A stretch of DNA of 64,000 nucleotides from IMG/VR virus record IMGVR_UViG_3300023174_000123, positions 21,332-85,331 of that record; one strand, written 5' to 3'. The notes under the pieces are model-generated. The model was given only the letters and a program-made list of their open reading frames with translations. It did no database searches and was not told the origin of the DNA. A program made the translations under genes and the position numbers. Below, piece by piece: positions 1,664-61,369 of the stretch (positions within the stretch are counted from its first letter, which is position 1; each line of letters starts with the position of its first letter). The DNA is from a virus.

Positions 1664-3574
1664 ATGACATTTTTTTACGACCTAAATAAGAAGTTGGCTG
1701 ACCTGGCCAAGAAACAAGACCTTGTTGAGAGTGCTCAGCCAGTGGCTGAACGTAGCACTGGTGACTACTCGGCCAAGAAAGCTGCTGCGGGCAAAGACAT
1801 TGGTAAGCCTGGCAAGATGTTTTCAAAGATTGCTAAGTCGGCAGGCGAGCGTTATGGCTCCAAAGAGCGTGGCGAGAAAGTTGCAGGTGCTGTATTAGCC
1901 AAACTGCGTGCCAAAGAAAGTGCCGGCAACATGGATGAGAGTGCTCTCCAAGCATACCTGGGTAAAAAGAAATACGGCGAGACTGGCATGAAGGCCCTGC
2001 AGAAAGCCGGCCGTGAAGGCGCCAGCAAAGAGACCATGGCCAAGATCCGTGCCAAACACGACAAGATGGACGAAGAAATAGCCGACGAAGGCAACGCATT
2101 TACAGCCAAGCTCAAGAGCACACCCAAGGGTGGCGAGTTTGAACTGGATGGCAAAAAATACAAAGACACCAGCAACATCGAAGAGAAAAAAGAAACCAAA
2201 AAATCTCGCAGTGCTGGCACAGCATTTGATCCTGAAGTGGCCAAATCAATGTTTGCCACCAAAGACGAGCATCCAAGATATGATGTCAAAGACACAGGCT
2301 ACAGTAAACGTTACACAAGAAAAGAAGAACCTGAAGAAAAAGATGATGTAGAAGTCACGGATCAACCCAAGAAGAAAGGTCGTCCAAAAGGTCCTGAGAA
2401 AGGTCCTGAGCGTGTAACCAAAGGCAGCCACAAGTACAAAATGGTCAATGGCAAGCGTGTCAAGAAAGAAAAGACCGAAGAAGATCTTGACACCGACGGC
2501 GTCATGATGACACGTCCGTCAAACATGAGTTCGGAAGACATTGAAAGTGTCAGCCTGATCAACAAAGGTGAATACGATCGTGAAGGCGAAATGGCCAAGG
2601 ACGATTTGGAAAGTCTTGCCATGGCTGCCAAAGAGTTGCATGCCATTCTTGGCGACGATGAAAATCTGCCTGAGTGGGTCCAAAGCAAAATCACCAAGGC
2701 CTTGGATTATATCAACAGCAGCAATCAATACATGCATCAACAAAAAGATGATGCAGAACCCGTGGCAGAAAAAGCCGTCAGCCAGGCACAACGCAGAGCC
2801 GCTGGCATAGCACATGCCGCACAAAAAGGCGAGATCCCCAAAAGCGAGTTGCGTGGCGCGTCAAAAGAAATGGCCCGGATGCCCAAGGGTGAACTGCACA
2901 AGTTTGCAGCGACCAAAGAAAAAGGTCTTCCAAAGAAAGTCAAAGAAGCCGGCAAACCCGACTTTTTAGATCTTGACAAGGATGGCAACAAGTCCGAACC
3001 CATGAAACAAGCTGCCAAACAAGCCAAAGGCAAGACGAAAGAAGAAGCCGTTGACGAAACAACTGTAGCCGGATCAGTGGCCACAGCACCCACTGGTGGT
3101 AAATCCAAGGGCGGTGTGCAGTTTGGCAAGGGCGTGTATGAAAGCCTGGATCGAAAGTTCCGGCAGGCACTCACAGAAGGCATGAACGTAAGTGTGAACA
3201 TGAACACTGGTCCTGATGGTAATCCCAGCAAGAACATCACTGTCAGTGCCGACGGTGAAGATGCAGAAGCCTTGGCCGCATTGTTAAAGATGGCTGGCAT
3301 GGGCGGTCACGACAACGCAGAAAGCTGTGGCACCTGTGGCAAAGCACCCTGTGGCTGTGAGGAATTAGATGAGAACAGCCCAGACTGGCCCACAAACACA
3401 GAAACCAGCGACAATGCCATGCAGTATTCAGGAGGCCTCAATGGTCCTAAATCAACTGGACAAACAACAGTTCCTGTGATTGCCAGCCAACTGCGTCGCC
3501 AAGTTTCAATGGAAGAGTCAATGGAACTTGAGCGCAATCTGTTCCGTTTATACCAAAACTATAAAGCACAATGA
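1664..3574 (+). CDS. Large basic/acidic head-associated protein with DUF3008-like and AT-hook-like segments
   Basis: This 636-residue protein is highly charged and mostly low complexity. Visible pieces are an AT-hook-like Lys-Lys-Gly-Arg-Pro-Lys-Gly near residue 240, a DUF3008-like segment near residues 370-425 (Ala-Gly-Ile-Ala-His-Ala-Ala, then Gly-Ala-Ser-Lys-Glu-Met-Ala), an EF-hand-like loop Asp-Leu-Asp-Lys-Asp-Gly-Asn-Lys-Ser near 430-440, and a Cys cluster (Cys-Gly-Thr-Cys-Gly ... Cys-Gly-Cys) near 550-565. Its neighbours carry capsid-targeting-like N-termini. A DNA-binding internal head or scaffold-like protein is plausible. Its exact role is unknown. It overlaps the next gene by 4 bases (ATGA). 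Confidence 0.55.
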   Translation: MTFFYDLNKKLADLAKKQDLVESAQPVAERSTGDYSAKKAAAGKDIGKPGKMFSKIAKSAGERYGSKERGEKVAGAVLAKLRAKESAGNMDESALQAYLGKKKYGETGMKALQKAGREGASKETMAKIRAKHDKMDEEIADEGNAFTAKLKSTPKGGEFELDGKKYKDTSNIEEKKETKKSRSAGTAFDPEVAKSMFATKDEHPRYDVKDTGYSKRYTRKEEPEEKDDVEVTDQPKKKGRPKGPEKGPERVTKGSHKYKMVNGKRVKKEKTEEDLDTDGVMMTRPSNMSSEDIESVSLINKGEYDREGEMAKDDLESLAMAAKELHAILGDDENLPEWVQSKITKALDYINSSNQYMHQQKDDAEPVAEKAVSQAQRRAAGIAHAAQKGEIPKSELRGASKEMARMPKGELHKFAATKEKGLPKKVKEAGKPDFLDLDKDGNKSEPMKQAAKQAKGKTKEEAVDETTVAGSVATAPTGGKSKGGVQFGKGVYESLDRKFRQALTEGMNVSVNMNTGPDGNPSKNITVSADGEDAEALAALLKMAGMGGHDNAESCGTCGKAPCGCEELDENSPDWPTNTETSDNAMQYSGGLNGPKSTGQTTVPVIASQLRRQVSMEESMELERNLFRLYQNYKAQ

Positions 3575-4308
3575 AATCGCTAAAAGACTATCTCGTAGAA
3601 AGTGAACAATGGATGAACACACCTGCTGCAGGTGACATCTTTGCGTTTGAACTTCCTGATGAAGTCTTGTGTGAGACCTACGTCATTGAAGTTGCTGATG
3701 ATTGTATCCTACTAGATTCTACACCAGAGATCAACGCAGCCTTGGCCGAATGGGCCACTCTTGAAGACTCCGACGAAGGTGATTCAGGTGTGATCATGGA
3801 AACCATGGGCTACGGCACCTTGGTCGGCGAAGGCGCCATGAAAAAAGAAATGCACGCAGCCGCAGAAGAAATGAGCCTGGAAGATTTCAAAGACCGCTAT
3901 GGTGACGAAGACTGGATTGAAGAATTTTGGCGAGTCAGTAACGGTGTGGATAAAGATATCGACGAAGACCAAGATGCGGCTGTGGTAGCTGGCAAAGAGG
4001 CTGCTATTGATGCCGCACAACGCTTGGCCACCGACGAAGCCGAATATCAAGGCCGCAAAGTAGCCCTGGGCAAGCCCATGGCAGGTGATGTCAAAAAGTT
4101 TAAGGTGTATGTCAAAGATCCCAAGACAGGCAATGTAAAGAAAGTGAACTTTGGGCATGGTGGCACCAGCGCCAAACGTGCTGGCCAAAAGACAATGCGT
4201 ATCAAAAAATCAAATCCTGCACGTAGAAAAAGTTTCCGGGCCCGTCACAACTGTGCCAACCCAGGCCCAAGAACAAAAGCACGCTATTGGTCGTGCCGTA
4301 AATGGTAA
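3571..4308 (+). CDS. Candidate internal head protein with conserved C-terminal DUF5872-type domain
   Basis: The 245-residue product starts Met-Lys-Ser-Leu-Lys-Asp-Tyr-Leu-Val-Glu-Ser, again like a T4 capsid-targeting sequence with a Leu-x-Glu cleavage site. The middle is acidic. The last 70 residues form a basic domain with Phe-Lys-Val-Tyr-Val-Lys-Asp-Pro and a terminal Ala-Arg-His-Asn-Cys-Ala-Asn-Pro-Gly ... Tyr-Trp-Ser-Cys. I recognise this domain (DUF5872-type, from memory) as recurring in large marine phages without a known function. The ATGA start overlaps the upstream stop, indicating translational coupling. Confidence 0.55.
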   Translation: MKSLKDYLVESEQWMNTPAAGDIFAFELPDEVLCETYVIEVADDCILLDSTPEINAALAEWATLEDSDEGDSGVIMETMGYGTLVGEGAMKKEMHAAAEEMSLEDFKDRYGDEDWIEEFWRVSNGVDKDIDEDQDAAVVAGKEAAIDAAQRLATDEAEYQGRKVALGKPMAGDVKKFKVYVKDPKTGNVKKVNFGHGGTSAKRAGQKTMRIKKSNPARRKSFRARHNCANPGPRTKARYWSCRKW

Positions 4309-4619: not shown

Positions 4620-5000
4620 GTGCGTGCCCGAGAATTTGTCTCCGAAGCCAAACGGGGAGGAGCCCGATCTGCACCTGCTCACGAATTTGAACAAGCTCAT
4701 CCTGGCCTAGTCATGCCCGGCGGCAAAGGTGATGTGTATTGGGGCCGCTACTATGATCACTATCGTGTTAGCAGTTTGGCTGGCATGGATCCAGCGGACA
4801 TTGACAAAATAGATGAAATTAATTTTTGGGGCAACTTGCCTGTGTTTAGTGCCTACACTGAATATGATCGCCGCAAACTCAAAGCGATCATGAAAAAACT
4901 TAAAATGAATCCCACAGATGCCATTGGCGACGGCAGTTATGAAACCACAGGCACCAACAAGACCAGTCCTGTCAAGGCCTTTCGAGGCTACACTCGCTAA
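4620..5000 (+). CDS. MRAREF-family small protein 1 (candidate internal virion protein)
   Basis: Starting at GTG two bases after the previous stop, this 126-residue protein begins Met-Arg-Ala-Arg-Glu-Phe-Val-Ser-Glu-Ala and ends with Thr-Asn-Lys-Thr-Ser-Pro-Val-Lys-Ala-Phe-Arg-Gly-Tyr-Thr-Arg. The same head and tail occur in the products at 5876-6274 and 6271-6663, so these are paralogues. The N-terminus fits a prohead-protease-cleaved targeting signal (Val-Ser-Glu before Ala). No catalytic motif is visible. Such MRAREF proteins recur in marine T4-like phages without known function. That is recalled, not checked. Confidence 0.6.
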   Translation: MRAREFVSEAKRGGARSAPAHEFEQAHPGLVMPGGKGDVYWGRYYDHYRVSSLAGMDPADIDKIDEINFWGNLPVFSAYTEYDRRKLKAIMKKLKMNPTDAIGDGSYETTGTNKTSPVKAFRGYTR

Positions 5001-5879
5001 ATGTGCGTGATCGTTGCCAAATGGTTTGACGGCACGGGCTGGGCCGGTGCCAAGAACCGTGACAGAACCTACACACCTGAATTAGATTTCATTGAAAGCA
5101 AAGCTGGCAATGTTGATCGCATGATGATGCATGATCTTGTCACTGGCTATAAAGAAGGTATCAACAGCCAGGGTGTCAGCATATTGAACACCAGCCTGGA
5201 CGTTGGCAACGACGAAACCGAAGTAGAAAGCGGCCGAGTCAAGTCCAGTCCCGACGGGCGGATCATAGCCGAAGCCTTGTCTTTACCCACGGCCGAACAA
5301 GCCGCTGGTTTGTTGATAAAGAATCAATTGTGTGGTTGTACCATGGTGTTTGATCAAGACGACATGATCTTGATCGAAGCTTCAAACTGGGATGGTAAAA
5401 GGCCCTATAGATTCCGGGCACGAAGGATACCTAAAACACAAACAGTGGCCAGGACCAATCACGGCATCTGGATGCCCACAGCTGGCATGCAACGTGACAA
5501 ACGAGATAAACAAAAAACGCTAGATCGCATCAGCAGTGAAAGCCGTTTATTGCTGGCTGAGGAAGTGGTAAAACAAGCACAACGACCCGAAGATCTAGTG
5601 GATGGCATGTGCCGTGTCTACATCAATGACCCGCAACTAAATATACTTAGGACCAGCACAGATGGGCGTAAAATGCGCACAACCAGCCAACAACTGTGTG
5701 TGCCAAAAGAACGAACCTTGTATTGTCGTCCTGTGAGTAGTCACATGAAGTTTGATTTTTGGAGCCTGAATCGCCCTACTACAGATGTGTGGGTTGAGCT
5801 AATGAGCAACAGAGAATTATGGCAGAATGTCAAAGGTGATCCACCTTTTGGCAGTATGCAGTTAAAGGACATGGAATGA
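5001..5879 (+). CDS. Ntn-hydrolase fold protein (C45/choloylglycine-hydrolase-like acylase or amidase)
   Basis: The 292-residue product begins Met-Cys, so removal of Met would expose Cys as an N-terminal nucleophile. Hallmarks of cysteine Ntn-hydrolases follow in order: Asn-Arg-Asp at 19-21, a Gly-Ile-Asn-Ser-Gln-Gly-Val-Ser segment near 52-59, and Arg-Thr-Asn-His-Gly near 152, resembling the Thr-Asn-His motif of the isopenicillin-N-acyltransferase (C45) group. Such enzymes cleave or transfer acyl groups on amides. The substrate is unknown. The gene sits between MRAREF-family paralogues with ATG-stop junctions on both sides, so it is probably co-translated with candidate internal head proteins. 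The family is fairly sure, the role open. Confidence 0.7.
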   Translation: MCVIVAKWFDGTGWAGAKNRDRTYTPELDFIESKAGNVDRMMMHDLVTGYKEGINSQGVSILNTSLDVGNDETEVESGRVKSSPDGRIIAEALSLPTAEQAAGLLIKNQLCGCTMVFDQDDMILIEASNWDGKRPYRFRARRIPKTQTVARTNHGIWMPTAGMQRDKRDKQKTLDRISSESRLLLAEEVVKQAQRPEDLVDGMCRVYINDPQLNILRTSTDGRKMRTTSQQLCVPKERTLYCRPVSSHMKFDFWSLNRPTTDVWVELMSNRELWQNVKGDPPFGSMQLKDME

Positions 5880-6274
5880 GAGCAAGAGAATTTGTAGCTG
5901 AACAACGCTATGGCGCCGCCAAGGATGTACCGGCCAGCGGAAAAAAACTACCTAAATCTCATCGCAGTGCTATCAAAGGCGCAATCAGCATGCCTGACAT
6001 CAGCCAGACCAAACAAGGCGGCAGTCCTTACACACAGTGGCGATTTGGCATAGCCATGGCCGGTGCACCTGATTATCCTACACCACCTGCAGGTGCCTTT
6101 GCCGGCGATCCGCTGTTGGCCACCTATTCGGATGCCGACTTGAAAATCATCAACGCAGCTGCCAAATCAGTGGGAGCTGGTGAAGTCAAGAAGCTCACAG
6201 ACAATCGCAGCACCGAAGCAGACTGGGTCAACAAGACTAGCCCTGTGACAGGATTTGGGGGATACGGCCGATGA
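5876..6274 (+). CDS. MRAREF-family small protein 2 (candidate internal virion protein)
   Basis: The 132-residue paralogue begins Met-Arg-Ala-Arg-Glu-Phe-Val-Ala-Glu-Gln and ends Val-Asn-Lys-Thr-Ser-Pro-Val-Thr-Gly-Phe-Gly-Gly-Tyr-Gly-Arg. The centre has Trp-Arg-Phe-Gly-Ile-Ala-Met-Ala, shared with the next gene, and a helical stretch with Ala-Ala-Ala-Lys-Ser-Val-Gly-Ala-Gly. The ATGA start overlaps the Ntn-hydrolase stop, so the two are translationally coupled. A virion-internal role is inferred from the capsid-targeting-like N-terminus only. Confidence 0.6.
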   Translation: MRAREFVAEQRYGAAKDVPASGKKLPKSHRSAIKGAISMPDISQTKQGGSPYTQWRFGIAMAGAPDYPTPPAGAFAGDPLLATYSDADLKIINAAAKSVGAGEVKKLTDNRSTEADWVNKTSPVTGFGGYGR

Positions 6275-6663
6275 GAGCCCGAGAGTTCATCCGTGAACAA
6301 CGAGAGCTTCCGCCCGAGATCTCGGAACCTTTGCGGTATACATACATACTGCCTGGACTCAGTGCCGCAGATCCTTACAGAAACTACAGATTTGGTGTGG
6401 CCATGGCCCGTGCTAGAAGTGACCGCGGCAAAGATCAAGATCAAGTAGATCACTTTATGCCGCCCTGGGAAGCAGAAACAGCCTTTGGCGAACATGGTGT
6501 GATATCGGGTTTTGATGCCAATGTGGATCCAGTGATCGACATGGCGCTAAAAATGACCAAGACACCCGGGGGCAAAAAGCTGGTCAGCTCGGCTGCTAGT
6601 GAAGAACCCGCCAGCACGGATAAAGTCAGTCCCATCAAACCTTTCCGAGGATATCCTAGATAA
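6271..6663 (+). CDS. MRAREF-family small protein 3 (candidate internal virion protein)
   Basis: The 130-residue third paralogue begins Met-Arg-Ala-Arg-Glu-Phe-Ile-Arg-Glu-Gln and ends Thr-Asp-Lys-Val-Ser-Pro-Ile-Lys-Pro-Phe-Arg-Gly-Tyr-Pro-Arg. It shares Tyr-Arg-Phe-Gly-Val-Ala-Met-Ala with paralogue 2. The start overlaps the previous stop (ATGA), and the stop shares a base with the next start. The trio plus the Ntn-hydrolase form one tight cassette. Function is unknown. Confidence 0.6.
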   Translation: MRAREFIREQRELPPEISEPLRYTYILPGLSAADPYRNYRFGVAMARARSDRGKDQDQVDHFMPPWEAETAFGEHGVISGFDANVDPVIDMALKMTKTPGGKKLVSSAASEEPASTDKVSPIKPFRGYPR

Positions 6664-21007: not shown

Positions 21008-21687
21008 CTCCTTTACCAATCTTTGTGGGCTACGATCCTAGAGAAGCTATAGCCTATCATGTCTGTGTTAACAGTATAATTCGGCATGCCAGCCAGCCGG
21101 TGGCTATCATGCCTGTGGCATTGAACTTGTTCCAGGACTATGAAGAAACACACGGTGACAACAGCAACCATTTTGTTTATACCCGATTCCTAGTGCCACA
21201 TCTCATGAGTTATAGCGATTGGGCTATATTCATTGACGGCGACATGGTGCTACGTGATGACATTGTCAAACTTTGGAGTTTGAGAGAGTATGACAAAGAT
21301 GTCATGGTAGTCAAACACGACTATAAAACACGCATGACAGAAAAATACATGGGGGCCAAAAACGAAGACTATCCCAGAAAGAATTGGTCAAGTGTAATAC
21401 TATGGAATTGTAGTAGCTGGCCCAATCGTAGGTTAACTCCAGAATTTGTGCAAAATCAACCCGGCAGTTACCTTCATAGATTTGCCTGGTTAGAAGATGC
21501 CCGCATCGGCGAATTACCCCGAGAATGGAACTGGTTGCCAGATGAGTATGGTGCTAATCCCGAGGCCAAGTTGTTGCACTATACCTTGGGCACTCCGTGT
21601 TTTCATGAGTTTGCAAACACGCCACAAGCCGAAGAATGGCACCAGGAAAGAATCTTTACTGAACATTGCCAACAACGTGAGATTTAG
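21004..21687 (+). CDS. Glycosyltransferase (GT-A, GT8-like)
   Basis: The 227-residue product begins at GTG overlapping the previous TGA. It has Ile-Phe-Val-Gly-Tyr-Asp-Pro-Arg-Glu near the start, as in many bacterial and phage GT8-like enzymes, and a metal-binding DxD motif in Ile-Phe-Ile-Asp-Gly-Asp-Met near 75-81. Conserved Leu-His-Tyr-Thr-Leu-Gly-Thr-Pro near 198-205 provides the late His. The donor and acceptor are unknown. It lies in a co-directional run with the sugar nucleotidyltransferase upstream. Confidence 0.7.
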   Translation: MTPLPIFVGYDPREAIAYHVCVNSIIRHASQPVAIMPVALNLFQDYEETHGDNSNHFVYTRFLVPHLMSYSDWAIFIDGDMVLRDDIVKLWSLREYDKDVMVVKHDYKTRMTEKYMGAKNEDYPRKNWSSVILWNCSSWPNRRLTPEFVQNQPGSYLHRFAWLEDARIGELPREWNWLPDEYGANPEAKLLHYTLGTPCFHEFANTPQAEEWHQERIFTEHCQQREI

Positions 21688-40196: not shown

Positions 40197-41605
40197 AAGA
40201 CTACGGACTTGAAGTCCAACGCCTATTCTTAGAAATGATGTTGCAAGACGCAGAGAGTTATGTGCGTGTGCAGAACATCTACAATCCAGAAAACTTTGAT
40301 CGTAGTCTGAGACCTGCGGCTGAGTTTATCGCCCGGCACAGTGACGATCACAAGACCCTGCCCACGGCAGACCAGATACGAGCCAGCACTGGTGTTGCAC
40401 TCAATCATATTCCAGATCTCAACGAAGGACACTTTGAGTGGTTCATGACCGAGTTTGAAGGATTTACTAGACGTCAAGAATTAGAACGTGCCATTCTTAA
40501 AAGTGCAGACTTGTTGGAAAAGGGCGAGTATGATCCTGTGGAGAAACTGATCAAAGATGCTGTACAGATATCGTTGACCAAAGACATGGGCACAGACTAC
40601 TGGTCCGATCCCAAAACACGTATCAACAAGTATTTTAATTCAGGCGGACAAGTGTCAACAGGTTGGCCACAGATGGACAAGATCTTGTATGGTGGCTTTA
40701 GCCGTGGCGAACTCAACATTTTTGCAGGCGGATCAGGATCTGGAAAGAGCTTGGTCATGATGAACATAGCACTCAGTTGGTTGCAGGCAGGACTGTCGGG
40801 TGTGTATATCAGTTTAGAACTCAGTGAAGAACTATGTGCCCTGAGAACTGATGCCATGTTGGCCGGCATGAGCACCAAAGAGATACGCAAGGACATAGAT
40901 CAGACTGAACTCAAGGTCAAGCTTGTGAGCAAGAAAGCCGGACAGTATCGTATCAAAGCTCTGCCAGCACAAAGCAACATCAATGACATCCGTAGTTACA
41001 TCAAAGAAGTGCAAGTGCAAACAGGATTGAAAGTGGATTTTGTCATGTGTGATTATTTAGACTTGCTGATGCCTGTGAGTGCCAAAGTCAGCCCCAATGA
41101 CTTGTTTGTCAAAGACAAGTATGTGAGTGAGGAACTACGTAACTTGGCCAAAGAACTCAACGTGTTATTTGTGACAGCCAGTCAGTTGAATCGTAGTGCC
41201 GTGGAGGAAATTGAATTTGATCACAGTCATATCTCGGGCGGTATTTCAAAGATCAATACAGCGGATAATGTGTTTGGTATCTTTACAAGTCGTGCCATGC
41301 GTGAACGCGGCAAGTATCAAATACAATGTATGAAGAGCCGTAGTAGTACAGGTGTAGGACAAAAGATTGACTTGGATTATAACATAGAAACCATGCGTAT
41401 CACTGATCCAGGTGAAGATGCTAGTCCTGTAAATTCTTTCAAAAAGCCAGATATTTTGAGCAGTATCCGTACACAGAGTCGTGCCTTGCCGTCGGCAACA
41501 GACAATGAACAAGAATCGGACTCAATAGAAAACACAGGAAAAATCACAGCAGATGTTCAGAGTGCCAAACTCAAACAATTATTAGGAAAAATCAAAACCA
41601 CATGA
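40190..41605 (+). CDS. 41: Replicative DNA helicase, T4 gp41 (DnaB-like)
   Basis: The 471-residue product begins at TTG within the end of the SGNH-like gene. Walker A is Gly-Gly-Ser-Gly-Ser-Gly-Lys-Ser (180-187), with a DnaB-type Tyr-Ile-Ser-Leu-Glu-Leu-Ser near 206-212. The Walker B region has Val-Met-Cys-Asp-Tyr-Leu-Asp-Leu-Leu near 284-292. Motif 4 has Val-Thr-Ala-Ser-Gln-Leu-Asn-Arg-Ser near 326-334. T4 gp41 (475 residues) is the hexameric fork helicase working with gp61. The rare TTG start follows the inserted gene, suggesting the insertion displaced the original start region. Confidence 0.92.
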   Translation: MLKDYGLEVQRLFLEMMLQDAESYVRVQNIYNPENFDRSLRPAAEFIARHSDDHKTLPTADQIRASTGVALNHIPDLNEGHFEWFMTEFEGFTRRQELERAILKSADLLEKGEYDPVEKLIKDAVQISLTKDMGTDYWSDPKTRINKYFNSGGQVSTGWPQMDKILYGGFSRGELNIFAGGSGSGKSLVMMNIALSWLQAGLSGVYISLELSEELCALRTDAMLAGMSTKEIRKDIDQTELKVKLVSKKAGQYRIKALPAQSNINDIRSYIKEVQVQTGLKVDFVMCDYLDLLMPVSAKVSPNDLFVKDKYVSEELRNLAKELNVLFVTASQLNRSAVEEIEFDHSHISGGISKINTADNVFGIFTSRAMRERGKYQIQCMKSRSSTGVGQKIDLDYNIETMRITDPGEDASPVNSFKKPDILSSIRTQSRALPSATDNEQESDSIENTGKITADVQSAKLKQLLGKIKTT

Positions 41606-42990: not shown

Positions 42991-43239
42991 ATGCAGAAAA
43001 CAACAAGAAGTCTATTAGAAGAACTGGATGCTATGTACATCGAGCGTGATCAGCGCCACGTCATAGAAAATCGCGCCAGCAATGTGATCGCTAGTGCAAT
43101 ACGCCTGCTAGAGCAGATCGACGAAACTTATCCGGCAGATCAAGCTGAAAATCTCAAAAGAAAACTGCTTAACGCGATCAATCAGCGTGATCCTGCTAAA
43201 TTTACCCGCACAGTGAGACGCACCGATGCAAATTCATGA
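42991..43239 (+). CDS. Small helical protein heading an internal-virion-like cassette
   Basis: The 82-residue product is helical and charged, beginning Met-Gln-Lys-Thr-Thr-Arg-Ser-Leu-Leu-Glu-Glu-Leu. It has Asn-Arg-Ala-Ser-Asn-Val-Ile-Ala-Ser-Ala-Ile near 27-37. No family is recognised. It shares a late promoter and a 14-base overlap with the next candidate internal protein, implying joint late expression. Confidence 0.5.
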   Translation: MQKTTRSLLEELDAMYIERDQRHVIENRASNVIASAIRLLEQIDETYPADQAENLKRKLLNAINQRDPAKFTRTVRRTDANS

Positions 43240-44287
43240 GATTACACTGGCACGTGTAGATGAAGGCGTGCTGAGCACACTTGGCCAAGACATAAAAAGT
43301 GCTGTAACCGAGCCCTTCCAGAAATTCCAGGCTGCTGCCGCCGAACCCGGCGGACTTGCTTCAGCCGGTGGTTATGCCACAGCCATGGACAAATACTATC
43401 GCGGTCAGATAGAAAAACAACAACCAGCAATAGATCAACAACAGGCTCAACGGCTAGCCGCTCAAACAAAACAAAAAGCCAGCGAACTGGCACAACAGTG
43501 GACACAGTATTTGCAAAGCAAGCCCAAGCCCCCAACACGATTGAAGTCGGCACCCACACCCATCAAGCCCACCGGGCAATACGCTACTAAACCGGTGCCT
43601 GGAACCACCATTGACGTCAACGCACCGCCGCAGTTGGGCACCACGGTCAAACCCGTCACAGGACGATCAATGACCGTGCGAGAACAGGACGAGCCCATAA
43701 CCATTGGTGGCCAGACCTTGGATCCAAAGAATCCCAAAGACGCACAAGTTCTAGCGCAGATGCGCACCCAGGGCAAACTACCACAGCCCACGCCCACACA
43801 GGTTCAACCAGCCAAGACTGGGTTTGCGGCAGTTGCGGGACCCACTGCGCCACCGGGTGGAAAAGTGAGATCGTCTGTCACAGCCGCTCCTAAAAATGTT
43901 CTCACAGGAAGCCGAGCTCAAGAATTCCGAGACTGGGTCAACAAGCAGTTGTCAACGCAAGTCACCGGAACCAATCAGACCTTGACTTTGGATCAGGTGC
44001 GCAAGGCAGATCCTGCAGTGGCACAGCAACTAGCACAACTTTTGCCGGCCATAATCACTCAAAATGATACCCAGGCCATAGAACAATACTTTACCATAGC
44101 CATGCAGGCCATGCAACGACTGTCAGCACAGATGCGACAAGGCAGTCGTGCTCGGTATGGCACAGCTGGTGCAGGGGTAAGTCCACTCAGCACTGTGATC
44201 AGTCCACAGGCCATAGAAAGTATCAAGACCATGGCACAAGATCCGGTCAAGGCTCGCGCTATCAAACAAACGTTTGGACTGAAATAA
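43226..44287 (+). CDS. Candidate internal virion protein, Gln/Pro/Thr-rich
   Basis: The 353-residue product starts Met-Gln-Ile-His-Glu-Ile-Thr-Leu-Ala-Arg-Val-Asp-Glu, loosely like a capsid-targeting signal. A long Pro/Thr/Lys/Gln-rich linker spans about 95-225, and a helical C-terminal domain follows (about 230-350), with Ala-Gln-Glu-Phe-Arg-Asp-Trp-Val-Asn-Lys near 232-241. No enzyme motif is visible. It is directly coupled (TAATG) to the nucleotidyltransferase fusion, so the two may act or be packaged together. Confidence 0.5.
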   Translation: MQIHEITLARVDEGVLSTLGQDIKSAVTEPFQKFQAAAAEPGGLASAGGYATAMDKYYRGQIEKQQPAIDQQQAQRLAAQTKQKASELAQQWTQYLQSKPKPPTRLKSAPTPIKPTGQYATKPVPGTTIDVNAPPQLGTTVKPVTGRSMTVREQDEPITIGGQTLDPKNPKDAQVLAQMRTQGKLPQPTPTQVQPAKTGFAAVAGPTAPPGGKVRSSVTAAPKNVLTGSRAQEFRDWVNKQLSTQVTGTNQTLTLDQVRKADPAVAQQLAQLLPAIITQNDTQAIEQYFTIAMQAMQRLSAQMRQGSRARYGTAGAGVSPLSTVISPQAIESIKTMAQDPVKARAIKQTFGLK

Positions 44288-46164
44288 TGCAACTATACGA
44301 AGGTGGCAATGTATTCAAAGATGCCGACGGTCGTAGCCTGACCCAACGCATCAATCAAACCGATGTCAAATCTACCCTGGCATGGTTAGAAGAACTACTA
44401 CCTGGACTGGATCTACAAAACAACACTTTAGGCAGCACTGGTATCAAAGACACTTCGGGCGATCTTGACATTGCTGTTGATGTCAGCCAGGTAACCAAAG
44501 AACAACTTGAAGCAAGACTCAAACAGTGGGTTGCCAGTCATGGATTCAAACCCGATGAGTGGGTGCGCAAGAGTGGCACAGCAGTACACTTCCTTACTCC
44601 AATAAATGGCACACCCGACCAGGGTTACGTTCAAACCGACTTTATGTTCTTGAAAAATGTGCCATGGTCAAAGTTTGTGTTGGGTGCCATGCCTGCCGAT
44701 TCCAAATACAAAGGCAAAGAACGCAACGTGCTCATGAACAGCATAGCCAAGAGCATGGGATATAAATTAAATCAAATCGCTGGCATAGCGGATCGCGTCA
44801 CAGACAAAATCATTTCGGATGATCCAGATGCAGTGGCCAAGATGCTACTGAACAAAACAGCCACACGCCAGGACCTAGCTTCGGTGGAAAGCATACTGCA
44901 AGCTCTTAGCACAGATCCTGAACGCGAATCTAAACTGTCCGACTTCCGTGAACACATGAAGCGTGAGGGCCTGCCATTCTTGGAAAGCGCAGAATTATAT
45001 CGGCCCGTGAGTGATGTGAACTTCCTGGCCAAGCTGAGAGACAGAATTGTAAACCAAGGCATGCAACCCTTGATTGAGCAAACTTTGATGGAAGCTGAAG
45101 CACGCATTCCACACATTGAAGATCTAGTATTTGATCGTGGCACACGTGGTGTAGAAGAAGCCATGCAAATCATAAAGGACGCTGCCGAAGACACTAGAAA
45201 AACAACCACAGTCAAATGGGATGGCAAACCTGCTATAATCTGGGGTAGAGATGAACGCGGACAATTTGTATTGACGGACAAAAGTGGATTTGGTGCCAAG
45301 GGCTATGCAGGTCGTGCCACCAGCATGGCGCAGTTGGCCGGTATCATGAGTCAACGTGGCGGAGAACGTGGCGACCTGATTGGCATTTATGCCAAGCTAT
45401 GGCCCATGTTGGAAGCTGCTACACCTGAAAAGTTCCGCGGATACTTGCAAGGTGACTTGCTGTATACTGAAACTCCTCCTGAAGTGTCGGGCAACTATGA
45501 ATTCAAGCCCAACTTTGTGGAATATCGCATTCCAGCCTCAAGTAAACTGGGACAGGCCATTGGAGCCAGTGAAGTGGGCATAGCCGTGCATACCCGATAC
45601 AAAACTGCCGACGCCACAGCCGAACCTATAAGAAGTGCAAATCTAGATCCAGTGCCAGGCCTGCTCATAATTGAGCCCACGGTCAAAGACATCAAGAATG
45701 TCACACCCAACAAAAAACTCGTAGATCAACTGCGTGCAGTCATCAGCTCGCACGGTGCTGACATCAACAGCTTGTTTAATCCCGGCGAGCTCAGAGCCGC
45801 ACAACTCAGCGATTTGCCAGCACTTTGCAAACGCTACATCAACAGCCGTATCACCACCGACTATGAAAATTTATTACCAGACTTTGGAGCTTGGTTGCAG
45901 AAAAATGTCACACCAAGAAAGTACAACAACATAGTGGAATACCTGCAGAGCCCCAGAAGCAACATGGATGGAATCACAGCCGCGTTCACGGCGTTTTTGC
46001 TACTACATGAAATCAAGATGGACATGCTGGCGCAACTGGATCGCCAACAACCTGGACAAGAAGGCTGGGTTTTGGCCACTCCTGCAGGGCGAGCCAAGCT
46101 AGTCAACAGATTTGGGTTCAGTGCTGGAAATAAAATCTTAAACAACCCCAATTTGGTAACCTAA
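44287..46164 (+). CDS. Fusion of polymerase-beta-type nucleotidyltransferase and KxDG ligase/capping-like domain
   Basis: The 625-residue product has two nucleotidyl-transfer signatures. Residues 49-65 carry Gly-Ser-Thr-Gly and then Gly-Asp-Leu-Asp-Ile-Ala-Val-Asp, the GS...DxD core of polymerase-beta-type nucleotidyltransferases. Residues 310-313 are Lys-Trp-Asp-Gly in the context Val-Lys-Trp-Asp-Gly-Lys-Pro-Ala, the KxDG motif I of covalent nucleotidyltransferases (DNA/RNA ligases, capping enzymes). Downstream Leu-Gln-Gly-Asp-Leu-Leu-Tyr near 382-388 resembles ligase motif III/IIIa. The C-terminal 200 residues are helical. I recall related single-domain proteins (DUF6267-type) in marine T4-like phages. 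A tRNA or RNA repair role is possible. Confidence 0.65.
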   Translation: MQLYEGGNVFKDADGRSLTQRINQTDVKSTLAWLEELLPGLDLQNNTLGSTGIKDTSGDLDIAVDVSQVTKEQLEARLKQWVASHGFKPDEWVRKSGTAVHFLTPINGTPDQGYVQTDFMFLKNVPWSKFVLGAMPADSKYKGKERNVLMNSIAKSMGYKLNQIAGIADRVTDKIISDDPDAVAKMLLNKTATRQDLASVESILQALSTDPERESKLSDFREHMKREGLPFLESAELYRPVSDVNFLAKLRDRIVNQGMQPLIEQTLMEAEARIPHIEDLVFDRGTRGVEEAMQIIKDAAEDTRKTTTVKWDGKPAIIWGRDERGQFVLTDKSGFGAKGYAGRATSMAQLAGIMSQRGGERGDLIGIYAKLWPMLEAATPEKFRGYLQGDLLYTETPPEVSGNYEFKPNFVEYRIPASSKLGQAIGASEVGIAVHTRYKTADATAEPIRSANLDPVPGLLIIEPTVKDIKNVTPNKKLVDQLRAVISSHGADINSLFNPGELRAAQLSDLPALCKRYINSRITTDYENLLPDFGAWLQKNVTPRKYNNIVEYLQSPRSNMDGITAAFTAFLLLHEIKMDMLAQLDRQQPGQEGWVLATPAGRAKLVNRFGFSAGNKILNNPNLVT

Positions 46165-47663: not shown

Positions 47664-48154
47664 TTAGTCCTGAATTTGATCGCATGTTCCGCCAGGAATT
47701 TCGTGATCTCATGCCCAACATGATCTGGAAAAACGACAACGGGGTATACGAAGTGTTTGACCGTTACAGGATCTCACCGGCCAAAATAGGTTATACAGTG
47801 TTTTGCTCCGCCACAGAAGTGGGCACATTCAGCTCTACTCGTTCGGCTTTGAGCTGGTGCATAGCCGACAAACATCACGCCTACAACACAGCCCGAGAAC
47901 TCCTGGAAACCGACCGCAAATTGGCTTATTTGACCCACGACATAGCCACTCGAGCTGGTATTGGTGATCGTAGCCGTGATCCTATGTTGCGAGAAACTAT
48001 TTTGGCCAAGTTAGAAAGCAAGATCATCCACAAAAAACTCTTGGAAAATCAACTGACCAAATGTGTCAAGTGGGCTAAATATGTTCAACAACGAGGATTT
48101 GAAGATGAAACTCAACGAATTGGCCGTGGCCAACCCAACAAAGCAAGCCGCTAA
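47660..48154 (+). CDS. Conserved hypothetical phage protein
   Basis: The 164-residue product starts at ATG 47660 overlapping the previous stop. It begins Met-Ile-Ser-Pro-Glu-Phe-Asp-Arg-Met-Phe, has Val-Gly-Thr-Phe-Ser-Ser-Thr-Arg-Ser-Ala-Leu-Ser-Trp-Cys near 54-67, and a basic helical C-terminal half. Function is unknown. It overlaps the following scaffold-like gene by 50 bases in another frame, an unusually long overlap here. Confidence 0.5.
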   Translation: MISPEFDRMFRQEFRDLMPNMIWKNDNGVYEVFDRYRISPAKIGYTVFCSATEVGTFSSTRSALSWCIADKHHAYNTARELLETDRKLAYLTHDIATRAGIGDRSRDPMLRETILAKLESKIIHKKLLENQLTKCVKWAKYVQQRGFEDETQRIGRGQPNKASR

Positions 48155-48983
48155 AGTATTTGAAAGCTACTTTGGTAATACAGTTAAATTTGATGCGGTC
48201 ACACCATCTCAGGCCCGTGGCATGCTCAAGCGTGTGCGTGCCATGATTGCAGAACATCGCCGCACTCCAGGATTCCACAACAGTGAGCAAAATCCCGCTT
48301 ATTTGAAATTAGTAGTCATGGAACAAGCTCTGGCAACACAGGCCATGGCACCAGGCGCAGGTTCTGCACCACAGCAAACCCCTCAACAGCAACAGGCTGC
48401 TATGACCTTGCAACGCCAACAAAAGCAACGTCAACTCGACGATGAAGAAAAACAGTTGACCAAACAGGCTCAAGACATAACGGCTAGAAAAGCTGCGATA
48501 CAAAAAGAAAAAGCTATGCTGGAAACACGCAAGAGCTTGAAACAACGACTCAAAGAAGCAAGTGAAGTTCAACAGGCTCAAGTTGTTTTGGCATCACAAG
48601 ACATGGTAGACCAAGTGCAGAAGATGAGTGAACAGGTTTCGGCCATGCAGTTCAAAGACCTACCAGCCTTGGTAGATCAGATCAAGAATGAAGTTGGCGT
48701 AGATCAAGCCATGCAGTTCAACACTGATGCCACAGCGGCCTTGGCAGGCTTGTTGCAAAATCTACAAGGTGCCAAGACACAGTTGGAAGCTGCACTAGGT
48801 GTGGTCACAGGTCAAGCTCCTATTGTACCAGGCGCTGACATGACAGCTGATCAAGGTCTTGGCAGTGAAATGCCAGCCGAATTACCAGCGCCCGGTGAAG
48901 AAGAAATTGATGTCACTGACATTGATGTTGAAGAGCCTGGTGCAGAAACACCAGCCGCATCATTGGGTCGTGCCCGTAGATAA
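48105..48983 (+). CDS. Scaffold-like coiled-coil protein of the head region
   Basis: The 292-residue product starts Met-Lys-Leu-Asn-Glu-Leu-Ala-Val-Ala-Asn-Pro-Thr-Lys-Gln, which I recall from conserved marine phage proteins. It has a helical domain (Phe-Glu-Ser-Tyr-Phe-Gly near 19-24 and Met-Leu-Lys-Arg-Val-Arg-Ala-Met near 40-47), then a Gln-rich segment and a long coiled coil (about 115-170). The C-terminus is acidic with Asp-Val-Thr-Asp-Ile-Asp. This layout fits a scaffold or prohead core protein. The long frame from 48063 starts inside the upstream gene, so 48105 is preferred. Confidence 0.5.
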   Translation: MKLNELAVANPTKQAAKVFESYFGNTVKFDAVTPSQARGMLKRVRAMIAEHRRTPGFHNSEQNPAYLKLVVMEQALATQAMAPGAGSAPQQTPQQQQAAMTLQRQQKQRQLDDEEKQLTKQAQDITARKAAIQKEKAMLETRKSLKQRLKEASEVQQAQVVLASQDMVDQVQKMSEQVSAMQFKDLPALVDQIKNEVGVDQAMQFNTDATAALAGLLQNLQGAKTQLEAALGVVTGQAPIVPGADMTADQGLGSEMPAELPAPGEEEIDVTDIDVEEPGAETPAASLGRARR

Positions 48984-49330
48984 TGTTGATACGTGAGTTT
49001 TTAGATACAAAAGTTGCTCCTGACGCAGACAAAGCAGCGGCCATTACCAAGTTTCTAATTGGGCGTGCCAAAGACGAAAGTGCTCGCAAACAAATGAGTC
49101 AAGATGCTTATATCCAGGCTCTAAAAAGTGTGGGCGTAGAAGTCACTCCGGAAAACTTAGGTGACATGGTCAACCAAGAACCTCTCAAAAACTTGTTAGA
49201 ACCTGTTGAACCCAACTCGGGCGTGGTGCGATTCAAAGGTGATACCGATGTTGCCACGGGCATGAGTGTGGATCAGGCCCGTGCCGTGGTAGATTCCAAC
49301 GCCAAAGCAGCAATGAAACGTCGTCAGTGA
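48983..49330 (+). CDS. Small conserved protein with MxxREFL start
   Basis: The 115-residue product begins Met-Leu-Ile-Arg-Glu-Phe-Leu-Asp-Thr, near to the MRAREF pattern, and has Asp-Lys-Ala-Ala-Ala-Ile-Thr-Lys-Phe near 16-24 and Leu-Lys-Ser-Val-Gly-Val-Glu-Val-Thr near 46-54. A tentative internal head or scaffold partner is suggested by position directly after the scaffold-like gene (TAATG junction). The function is unknown. Confidence 0.45.
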   Translation: MLIREFLDTKVAPDADKAAAITKFLIGRAKDESARKQMSQDAYIQALKSVGVEVTPENLGDMVNQEPLKNLLEPVEPNSGVVRFKGDTDVATGMSVDQARAVVDSNAKAAMKRRQ

Positions 49331-61018: not shown

Positions 61019-61369
61019 ATGAGAGAATACTTACTAAGCGAATCGGCACAAAAAATCTTGGCATTGCACCGGAGTCCTGAATTCCAACAGATGGATTTCA
61101 GTGATCAATTAGATTTGAGGACTTTAGATCACGAACTGTTAGAGTTGGCAAGATATTTTGAAAGTCTTGACGAAATCAATGACACCTATAAGAAAATGTG
61201 TCATGATTTTTTTTATAGAATGTTTACGACCTGCGATCGCGACGACTCTATAGCTTATTTCAGATTGGCTGTGGTTGATTATCGTTTGCTTGTGTGGGCT
61301 GAAAGTAGTGTGGATGAGTTTGTGTATAAAATACAACCACGTGTAGATCGTTTATGTGGAAGTGGTTGA
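61019..61369 (+). CDS. Helical hypothetical protein
   Basis: The 116-residue product is helical with Met-Arg-Glu-Tyr-Leu-Leu-Ser-Glu-Ser-Ala-Gln-Lys-Ile and Asp-His-Glu-Leu-Leu-Glu-Leu-Ala-Arg-Tyr near 37-46. A Trp and several Tyr lie in the C-terminal half. An aaagg site precedes the ATG. Its end overlaps the next promoter -35 box. The function is unknown. Confidence 0.5.
   Translation: MREYLLSESAQKILALHRSPEFQQMDFSDQLDLRTLDHELLELARYFESLDEINDTYKKMCHDFFYRMFTTCDRDDSIAYFRLAVVDYRLLVWAESSVDEFVYKIQPRVDRLCGSG

Follow-up and report, generated by a model that had tools for sequence, protein, structure and literature searches.

A predicted PolX-like polymerase and DUF6267 ligase fusion with a putative head-targeting propeptide in a probable jumbo T4-like phage

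In this study, we analyzed a window of 64,000 nucleotides from the IMG/VR virus record IMGVR_UViG_3300023174_000123 (positions 21,332 to 85,331 of a record of 85,331 bases), in which one gene encodes a bimodular protein of 625 amino acids (aa) that joins a PolX-like nucleotidyltransferase module to a C-terminal DUF6267 module predicted to be a ligase core (Table 1). The window carries T4-like genes for terminase, SSB, UvsX, and a gp41-type helicase, and the contigs that bear close relatives of the 625-aa protein measure 337 and 344 kb; the record is thus probably a fragment of a jumbo T4-like phage genome. Scanning 84,980 prokaryote species genomes gave 0 relatives of the protein, in keeping with a gene of phages. 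In the window, a degenerate DNA pattern encoding TVKWDGKPA occurred once against 0 expected from shuffles; neither the GSTGIKDTSGDLD nor the KWDG motif of the protein arises by chance.

Table 1. Features of the gene for the 625-aa protein and of its surroundings, in window coordinates.
Feature	Position	Strand	Remarks
gp41/DnaB-type helicase, anchoring the locus on its upstream side	40190..41605	+	phrog_19, E 3e-70; synteny
82-aa syntenic marker gene adjoining the module	42991..43239	+	49% identity to L232 gene, 41% to PA5oct gene
Adjacent gene, 353 aa, candidate internal virion protein	43226..44287	+	MQIHE propeptide motif; MQI(H/Y)E in relatives; rapidly diverging
PolX-like nucleotidyltransferase/DUF6267 ligase gene, bimodular	44287..46164	+	625 aa; real open reading frame
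Putative prohead-protease propeptide, MQLYE	44287..44301	+	residues 1-5; predicted cut after E5, giving a Gly-Gly-Asn start
PolX-like palm and thumb	44308..44901	+	residues 8-205; predicted from AlphaFold2 model, VIA, Foldseek
GSTGIKDTSGDLD with catalytic D59 and D61	44431..44469	+	residues 49-61; D59 and D61 invariant
VQTDFMF, third catalytic Asp D118	44629..44649	+	invariant, stand-alone jumbo-phage domains included
DNA_pol_B_thumb (PF14791) match	44725..44814	+	residues 147-176; E 0.017, below cut-off
Interdomain linker, low confidence	44989..45099	+	residues 235-271; AlphaFold2 pLDDT <50 at 235-245 and 252-271
DUF6267, predicted ligase fold	45103..46161	+	residues 273-625; PF19782 E 2.4e-33, AlphaFold2, structure matches
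Ligase motif I, K310-W-D-G, predicted AMP-lysine	45214..45225	+	residues 310-313; invariant in three-clade alignment
Ligase motif III, QGDLLY (D390)	45448..45465	+	G-D-L invariant in three-clade alignment
Helical insertion (mostly) between motifs III and IV	45712..46047	+	residues 476-587; AlphaFold2 secondary structure
Ligase motif IV, QEGWV (E592)	46057..46071	+	E and G invariant in three-clade alignment
Ligase motif V, KLVNR (K604)	46096..46110	+	K and R invariant in three-clade alignment
Neighbor with MKLNE/LAV start (slash, putative cut)	48105..48983	+	homologue of PA5oct protein EST35_0237, detected by mass spectrometry
Neighbor with MLIRE/F start	48983..49330	+	M-x-(L/I)-x-E kept in family

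An earlier reading of this DNA, made from the letters only (the sequence-only reading), had noticed a polymerase-beta-type signature at residues 49-61 and a KWDG motif typical of covalent ligases at residues 310-313, and both positions proved exact. In 57 IMG/VR homologues of the fused protein (62-90% identity), G49, D59, D61, D118, K310, W311, D312, and G313 were invariant and S50 was conserved in at least 90%, so that the lysine and the DxD pair are both kept. D118, which was absent from the earlier reading, completes with D59 and D61 the Asp triad that a polymerase-beta-type site needs, and the triad is kept throughout the stand-alone jumbo-phage proteins as well (alignment identities of 21-53% to the first row). 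Both folds supposed by that reading were obtained by structure prediction, as described below.

The fold of the N-terminal half was modeled with AlphaFold2 on the 57 aligned relatives, with a mean predicted local distance difference test score (pLDDT) of 82. The 50 Foldseek matches listed for this half were mostly family X polymerases (pol lambda, beta, mu, TdT, and AsfvPolX), the remainder being ligases and one PolX-containing complex of non-homologous end joining (NHEJ); the entry 3pmn matched with E 3e-3 and a probability of 1.00, and AsfvPolX with a TM-score of 0.54 by target. VIA structural alignment placed residues 1-201 on the palm and thumb of family X, with a best Z of 10.6 over 181 residues of pol lambda, and covered residues 139-335 of pol beta. 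The thumb match to PF14791 is the sole one in the 85-kb record and recurs at the same place in the 344-kb relative, in both cases below the cut-off. Folds absent from the Foldseek matches listed, e.g., those of RtcB and the CCA-adding enzyme, may also come into question. A search of the 625-aa protein against NCBIfam gave no match. The N-terminal half is labeled PolX-like only, because sequence comparison alone is insufficient to prove kinship with PolX.

The C-terminal half scored 116.5 bits with the DUF6267 model (PF19782) over residues 275-615, against a curated Pfam cut-off of 27, and the model matched 57 of 57 IMG/VR homologues. DUF6267 is a family of unknown function in Pfam, and no mention of it was found in the literature covered. 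Beyond residue 313, ligase motifs III, IV, and V were found, and in an alignment of 65 C-terminal halves from three clades, with identity down to 22%, the few invariant residues include K310-W-D-G-x-P-A (motif I), G389-D390-L (motif III), E592-G593-x-V595 (motif IV), and K604-x-V-x-R (motif V). The protein ends shortly past motif V and lacks the OB domain or any other domain that ligases carry at the C-terminus. When this half was modeled separately (residues 268-625), AlphaFold2 gave a pLDDT of 89.7 and a predicted TM-score of 0.83; the best 50 VIA matches were all RNA or DNA ligases, which are covalent nucleotidyltransferases, and most of the Foldseek matches listed were ligases. The best VIA match listed, a Naegleria nick-sealing RNA ligase (180 residues, root-mean-square deviation 4.0 Å), had a Z of 7.9, which is in the range of chance arrangements. 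The predicted ligase fold appears convincing through the all-ligase match list and the conserved motifs jointly, not through a Z below 8 alone, and we consider the DUF6267 half to be a putative ligase core of the ATP type.

Concerning the N-terminus of the protein, the prohead protease gp21 of T4 is known to cut after L/I-X-E, and the capsid-targeting propeptides are short (PMC9026906). The 139 fused homologues yielded 48 distinct N-terminal peptides preceding GGN, all of which fit (L/I/V)-x-E/GG, the site of the T4 prohead protease: P1 was E in 48 of 48, P3 was L or I in 46 and V in the other 2, and P2 and P4 were free, with 12 residue types each. Those stand-alone N-domains that lack a propeptide start with M-GG or M-SG, so that the predicted cleavage would give the fused protein a nearly identical mature start. 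The same (L/I)xE precedes (D/E/G)KNTHLEH in the DUF6267 proteins of Pelagibacter phages, and those of cyanophages begin M(A/S)KNTHLEH. Peptidase_S77, the gp21-type prohead protease, was above its cut-off in all five records of relatives tested, including that of the 337-kb phage, whose protein is 89% identical.

The sequence-only reading had also placed the gene in a late cassette, behind a candidate internal virion protein, and had thought packaging with the DNA possible. The late placement is a fair description, since the syntenic block of Pseudomonas phage PA5oct consists mostly of virion proteins detected by mass spectrometry, yet the locus starts just after the gp41-type helicase. In that block, the stand-alone N-domain EST35_0231 is annotated 'structural protein, ESI-MS/MS', as are most of the surrounding genes. 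The upstream 353-aa gene diverges rapidly and has the same propeptide motif, which is consistent with an internal virion protein, and three neighbors in the window begin with M-x-(L/I)-x-E, a start also kept by relatives. The invariant propeptide pattern, the gp21-type protease of the relatives, and the detected N-domain of PA5oct support the idea of packaging, and the 625-aa protein itself may thus be carried in the head.

Six other open reading frames of the window have T4-like propeptide starts and are candidate internal head proteins: 1051-1659 (MKKFQEYLAE/S), 3571-4308 (MKSLKDYLVE/S), 4620-5000 (MRAREFVSE/A), 5876-6274 (MRAREFVAE/Q), 6271-6663 (MRAREFIRE/Q), and 61019-61369 (MREYLLSE/S). 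MRAREF is common to three of them.

The two halves also occur as separate genes at the gp41-helicase locus of four jumbo phages, namely Agrobacterium phage Atu_ph07, Sinorhizobium phage Phosso, a 462-kb IMG/VR phage, and PA5oct. A search with the N-terminal half found stand-alone N-domains in Atu_ph07, Phosso, and PA5oct-group phages of Pseudomonas, and weakly in Prevotella Lak phages. A KxDG ligase-like gene lies directly upstream of the N-domain gene in Atu_ph07, Phosso, and the 462-kb phage, and three positions upstream, within the same block, in PA5oct. Three of these split-form ligases gave sub-threshold matches to RNA_ligase (PF09414), one of which also matches DUF6267 motifs IV-V, and the model of the window protein, when run against a viral structure library, found the ligase-like protein of PA5oct and an Atu_ph07 protein named 'RNA ligase' in UniProt. 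When DUF6267 was compared with the split-form ligases by hhalign, the result was no more than suggestive (P 9e-4, probability 22%), with motifs IV-V and PN-x-x-x-Y aligned. Across the fused relatives the gene order is kept as gp41 helicase, 82-aa gene, a variable gene, and the PolX-like/ligase module, and in Phosso, L232, and PA5oct the module is likewise flanked by the helicase and the 82-aa gene. Since several lineages keep the two enzymes as neighbors and another has them fused, there is good evidence from gene arrangement that they would act together. The 82-aa protein, whose function is unknown, is kept at the locus in jumbo phages with hosts from Pseudomonas to Sinorhizobium.

Several observations were made on the surroundings of related genes. 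Pelagibacter phage HTVC008M (L144, 6721-9170) encodes, near its DUF6267 gene, a zeta-toxin/kinase-like P-loop protein (LKE/G start) and a DUF5824-containing protein that resembles cytidylyltransferases; in cyanophage P-RSM6 a CTP_transf_like gene follows DUF6267. DUF6267 may join nucleotidyltransferases repeatedly, because a 591-aa 'cytidyltransferase-like' protein of S-PM2 matches the model of the window protein. Genes near the ligase or N-domain at L148 4647-5666 (PA5oct), L144 3926-4984 (HTVC008M), and L145 9653-10831 (P-RSM6) resemble PD-(D/E)xK nucleases on visual inspection, with no match in Pfam. In Atu_ph07 (L149, 5794-9956), tandem genes stand right after the stand-alone N-domain; several have QLxE-type N-termini, and by eye they resemble ADP-ribosyltransferases of the T4 Alt type, with no Pfam match to such a transferase in the two that were scanned.

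Based on these data, the explanation that we prefer, with a probability of about 0.5, is that the 625-aa protein is a head-packaged and injected enzyme that fills or extends and then seals, likelier for DNA gaps than for tRNA. The N-terminal module (residues about 8-205), a minimal PolX-like palm and thumb with D59, D61, and D118, would add nucleotides at the 3' end, and the DUF6267 module (residues about 273-625) would be adenylylated on K310 and, once charged with AMP, join the extended 3' end to a 5'-phosphate. Residues 1-5 would serve as the propeptide for a T4-type prohead protease, so that the enzyme would enter the prohead, be trimmed there to the Gly-Gly-Asn start, and later be injected with the genome to fill and seal gaps, nicks, and broken ends ahead of phage gene expression.

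A number of results weigh against this interpretation. By sequence, the comparison of the N-terminal half with human pol beta by hhalign was not significant (P 0.067), no PolX profile was above its cut-off on the 625-aa protein or its relatives, and PDB searches, whether by the protein sequence or by profiles, yielded no PolX match and nothing useful. For the ligase half, the Foldseek E values are weak (best 0.017), and the similarity is nearer to RNA ligases (Z 7.9) than to DNA ligases (Z about 6.4). On the side of packaging, neither a prohead protease nor gp23 was found in the window's own 85-kb fragment, both negatives being uninformative; the ligase-like gene of PA5oct has no mark of detection by mass spectrometry; and (L/I)xE starts in this one genome numbered 9 against 5.7 +/- 2.2, an excess that is not significant, so that the packaging claim rests on conservation in relatives. 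Lastly, the phage already carries a separate DNA ligase of the T4 type, which suggests that the 625-aa enzyme is not the replication ligase. This ATP-dependent ligase is at 63217-63807 of the window, near the end of the record (PF01068, E 5e-24), where spurious minus-strand open reading frames overlap it; given its presence, the idea that DUF6267 is a mere stand-in for a missing DNA ligase was rejected here.

The substrate is the least certain part of the preferred explanation. DNA is favored because of the PolX fold and the precedents of PgVPolX and African swine fever virus (ASFV), described below, whereas RNA is favored because of the RNA-ligase-like C-terminal half and because RNA ligases are known to be paired in phages with polymerase-beta-type enzymes of the RlaP family (PMC7824862). 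The sequence-only reading had suggested, as an example, the repair of RNA or tRNA ends cut by host defenses. In such a scheme the N-terminal half would restore lost nucleotides of cleaved RNA and the C-terminal half would ligate it, so that the damage done by anticodon nucleases or other RNases of the host would be undone, and the enzyme might be packaged. The adding and sealing parts of that proposal agree with both predicted folds and the conserved catalytic residues, and its RNA part agrees with the Naegleria enzyme as best listed match, with the RNA_ligase matches and the UniProt name among the split forms, and with the T4-type DNA ligase, whose presence suggests another substrate for an extra ligase. 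However, the N-terminal half fits DNA polymerase X, apparently including the thumb, the RlaP model PF10127 had no match in the phage's own record or in close relatives, the window has 0 tRNA genes, and no adjoining kinase or phosphatase partner was identified in this genome. RNA repair appears less probable than DNA repair. RlaP identity of the N-terminal half was dropped on the PF10127 result; the same search does find a separate RlaP elsewhere in Atu_ph07, and hhalign of the N-terminal half with an RlaP sequence was not significant.

Two further explanations seem improbable. Polymerase-beta-type and KxDG folds serve varied transfers, and the protein, with no OB domain past motif V, might transfer a nucleotidyl or adenylyl group to a target other than a nucleic acid, such as by AMPylation of a protein or nucleotide tagging of a host target at injection, in the manner of packaged T4-like enzymes, e.g., Alt, by which host proteins are modified (PMC9026906). 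However, the protein retains motifs I, III, IV, and V, and in other phages too the partner of the polymerase-beta-type domain is a KxDG ligase. It is just as hard to regard the protein as an ordinary, unpackaged enzyme of early or middle replication and repair, with (L/I)xE as a fixed start that is not processed. The locus does begin beside the gp41 helicase, and the cyanophage DUF6267 proteins do without a propeptide; but P2 and P4 each accept 12 residue types, in contrast to P1 and P3, the M-GG opening of stand-alone N-domains indicates that the fold has no need of the Glu, and the PA5oct homologue was detected in virions.

The preferred fill-and-seal explanation has several known counterparts. 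PgVPolX of Phaeocystis globosa virus is a PolX fused to an NAD+-dependent DNA ligase, for which gap filling and sealing were shown biochemically (PMC5537341). Both are viral proteins with an N-terminal PolX or PolX-like core and a C-terminal ligase in one chain, but PgVPolX, from a haptophyte giant virus, has 1093 aa and an 8-kDa lyase domain, and its ligase is of the NAD+ type, whereas the phage protein has 625 aa, a predicted palm and thumb only, an ATP-type-looking DUF6267 ligase, and a putative head-targeting propeptide; no NAD+-type ligase match was found in it with Pfam or NCBIfam. In ASFV, DNA polymerase X and DNA ligase are both in the virion nucleoid (PMC12172490), which resembles the present case in that a minimal PolX and a ligase would be carried in virions, and AsfvPolX is among the structural matches of the N-terminal half; the ASFV enzymes are, however, two separate proteins of a eukaryotic virus, with no sequence relationship detected. 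A 129.7-kDa NAD-dependent DNA ligase has also been reported in virions of the haptophyte virus PkV RF02 (PMC11953307).

Among phages, the pairs of RlaP and RNA ligase in jumbo phages (PMC7824862) likewise bring together a polymerase-beta-type nucleotidyltransferase and a covalent ligase, but here the enzymes are fused, PolX-like, without an RlaP match, and tied to a virion locus. T4 Alt and the internal proteins IPI-III share the short N-terminal propeptide ending in L/I-x-E, are capsid-targeted, and are injected; their propeptides have 7-65 residues (PMC9026906) against 4-8 here, and the cargo here is a predicted polymerase-ligase. The DUF6267/phrog_455 proteins of T4-like cyanophages and HTVC008M have ligase motifs identical to those of the C-terminal half, which is a member of this family, but lack the PolX-like half. 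Bacterial LigD of NHEJ also unites a polymerase and an ATP-dependent ligase in one polypeptide; its polymerase is of the primase (AEP) type, and neither Ku nor a nuclease domain was seen in the phage protein.

Therefore, a PolX-ligase fusion in a haptophyte giant virus and repair enzymes carried in virions are already known. What appears to be new is a phage version with a DUF6267 ligase, a minimal polymerase module, a putative propeptide of five residues for the prohead protease, and the occurrence of both split and fused forms at a single conserved locus; no published description of a phage PolX-like/DUF6267 fusion was found in the part of the literature covered. DUF6267, which has tblastn matches in hundreds of records from cyanophages and Pelagibacter phages, gains a testable function as a ligase, and in a jumbo-phage lineage it is fused to a PolX-like domain. 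More tentatively than for the single protein, we suggest that jumbo T4-like phages may pack into the head a single-chain gap-filling polymerase-ligase that is trimmed by the prohead protease and injected, so that damage and host-inflicted breaks could be repaired before phage gene expression, and that DUF6267 may be the ligase family put to such use. If so, this would be a compact natural fill-and-seal enzyme of about 600 aa with a very short head-targeting propeptide, and, if the packaging holds true, tailed phages would have in common with ASFV, and perhaps also with haptophyte giant viruses, a gap-filling polymerase and ligase carried within the particle, a solution reached independently.

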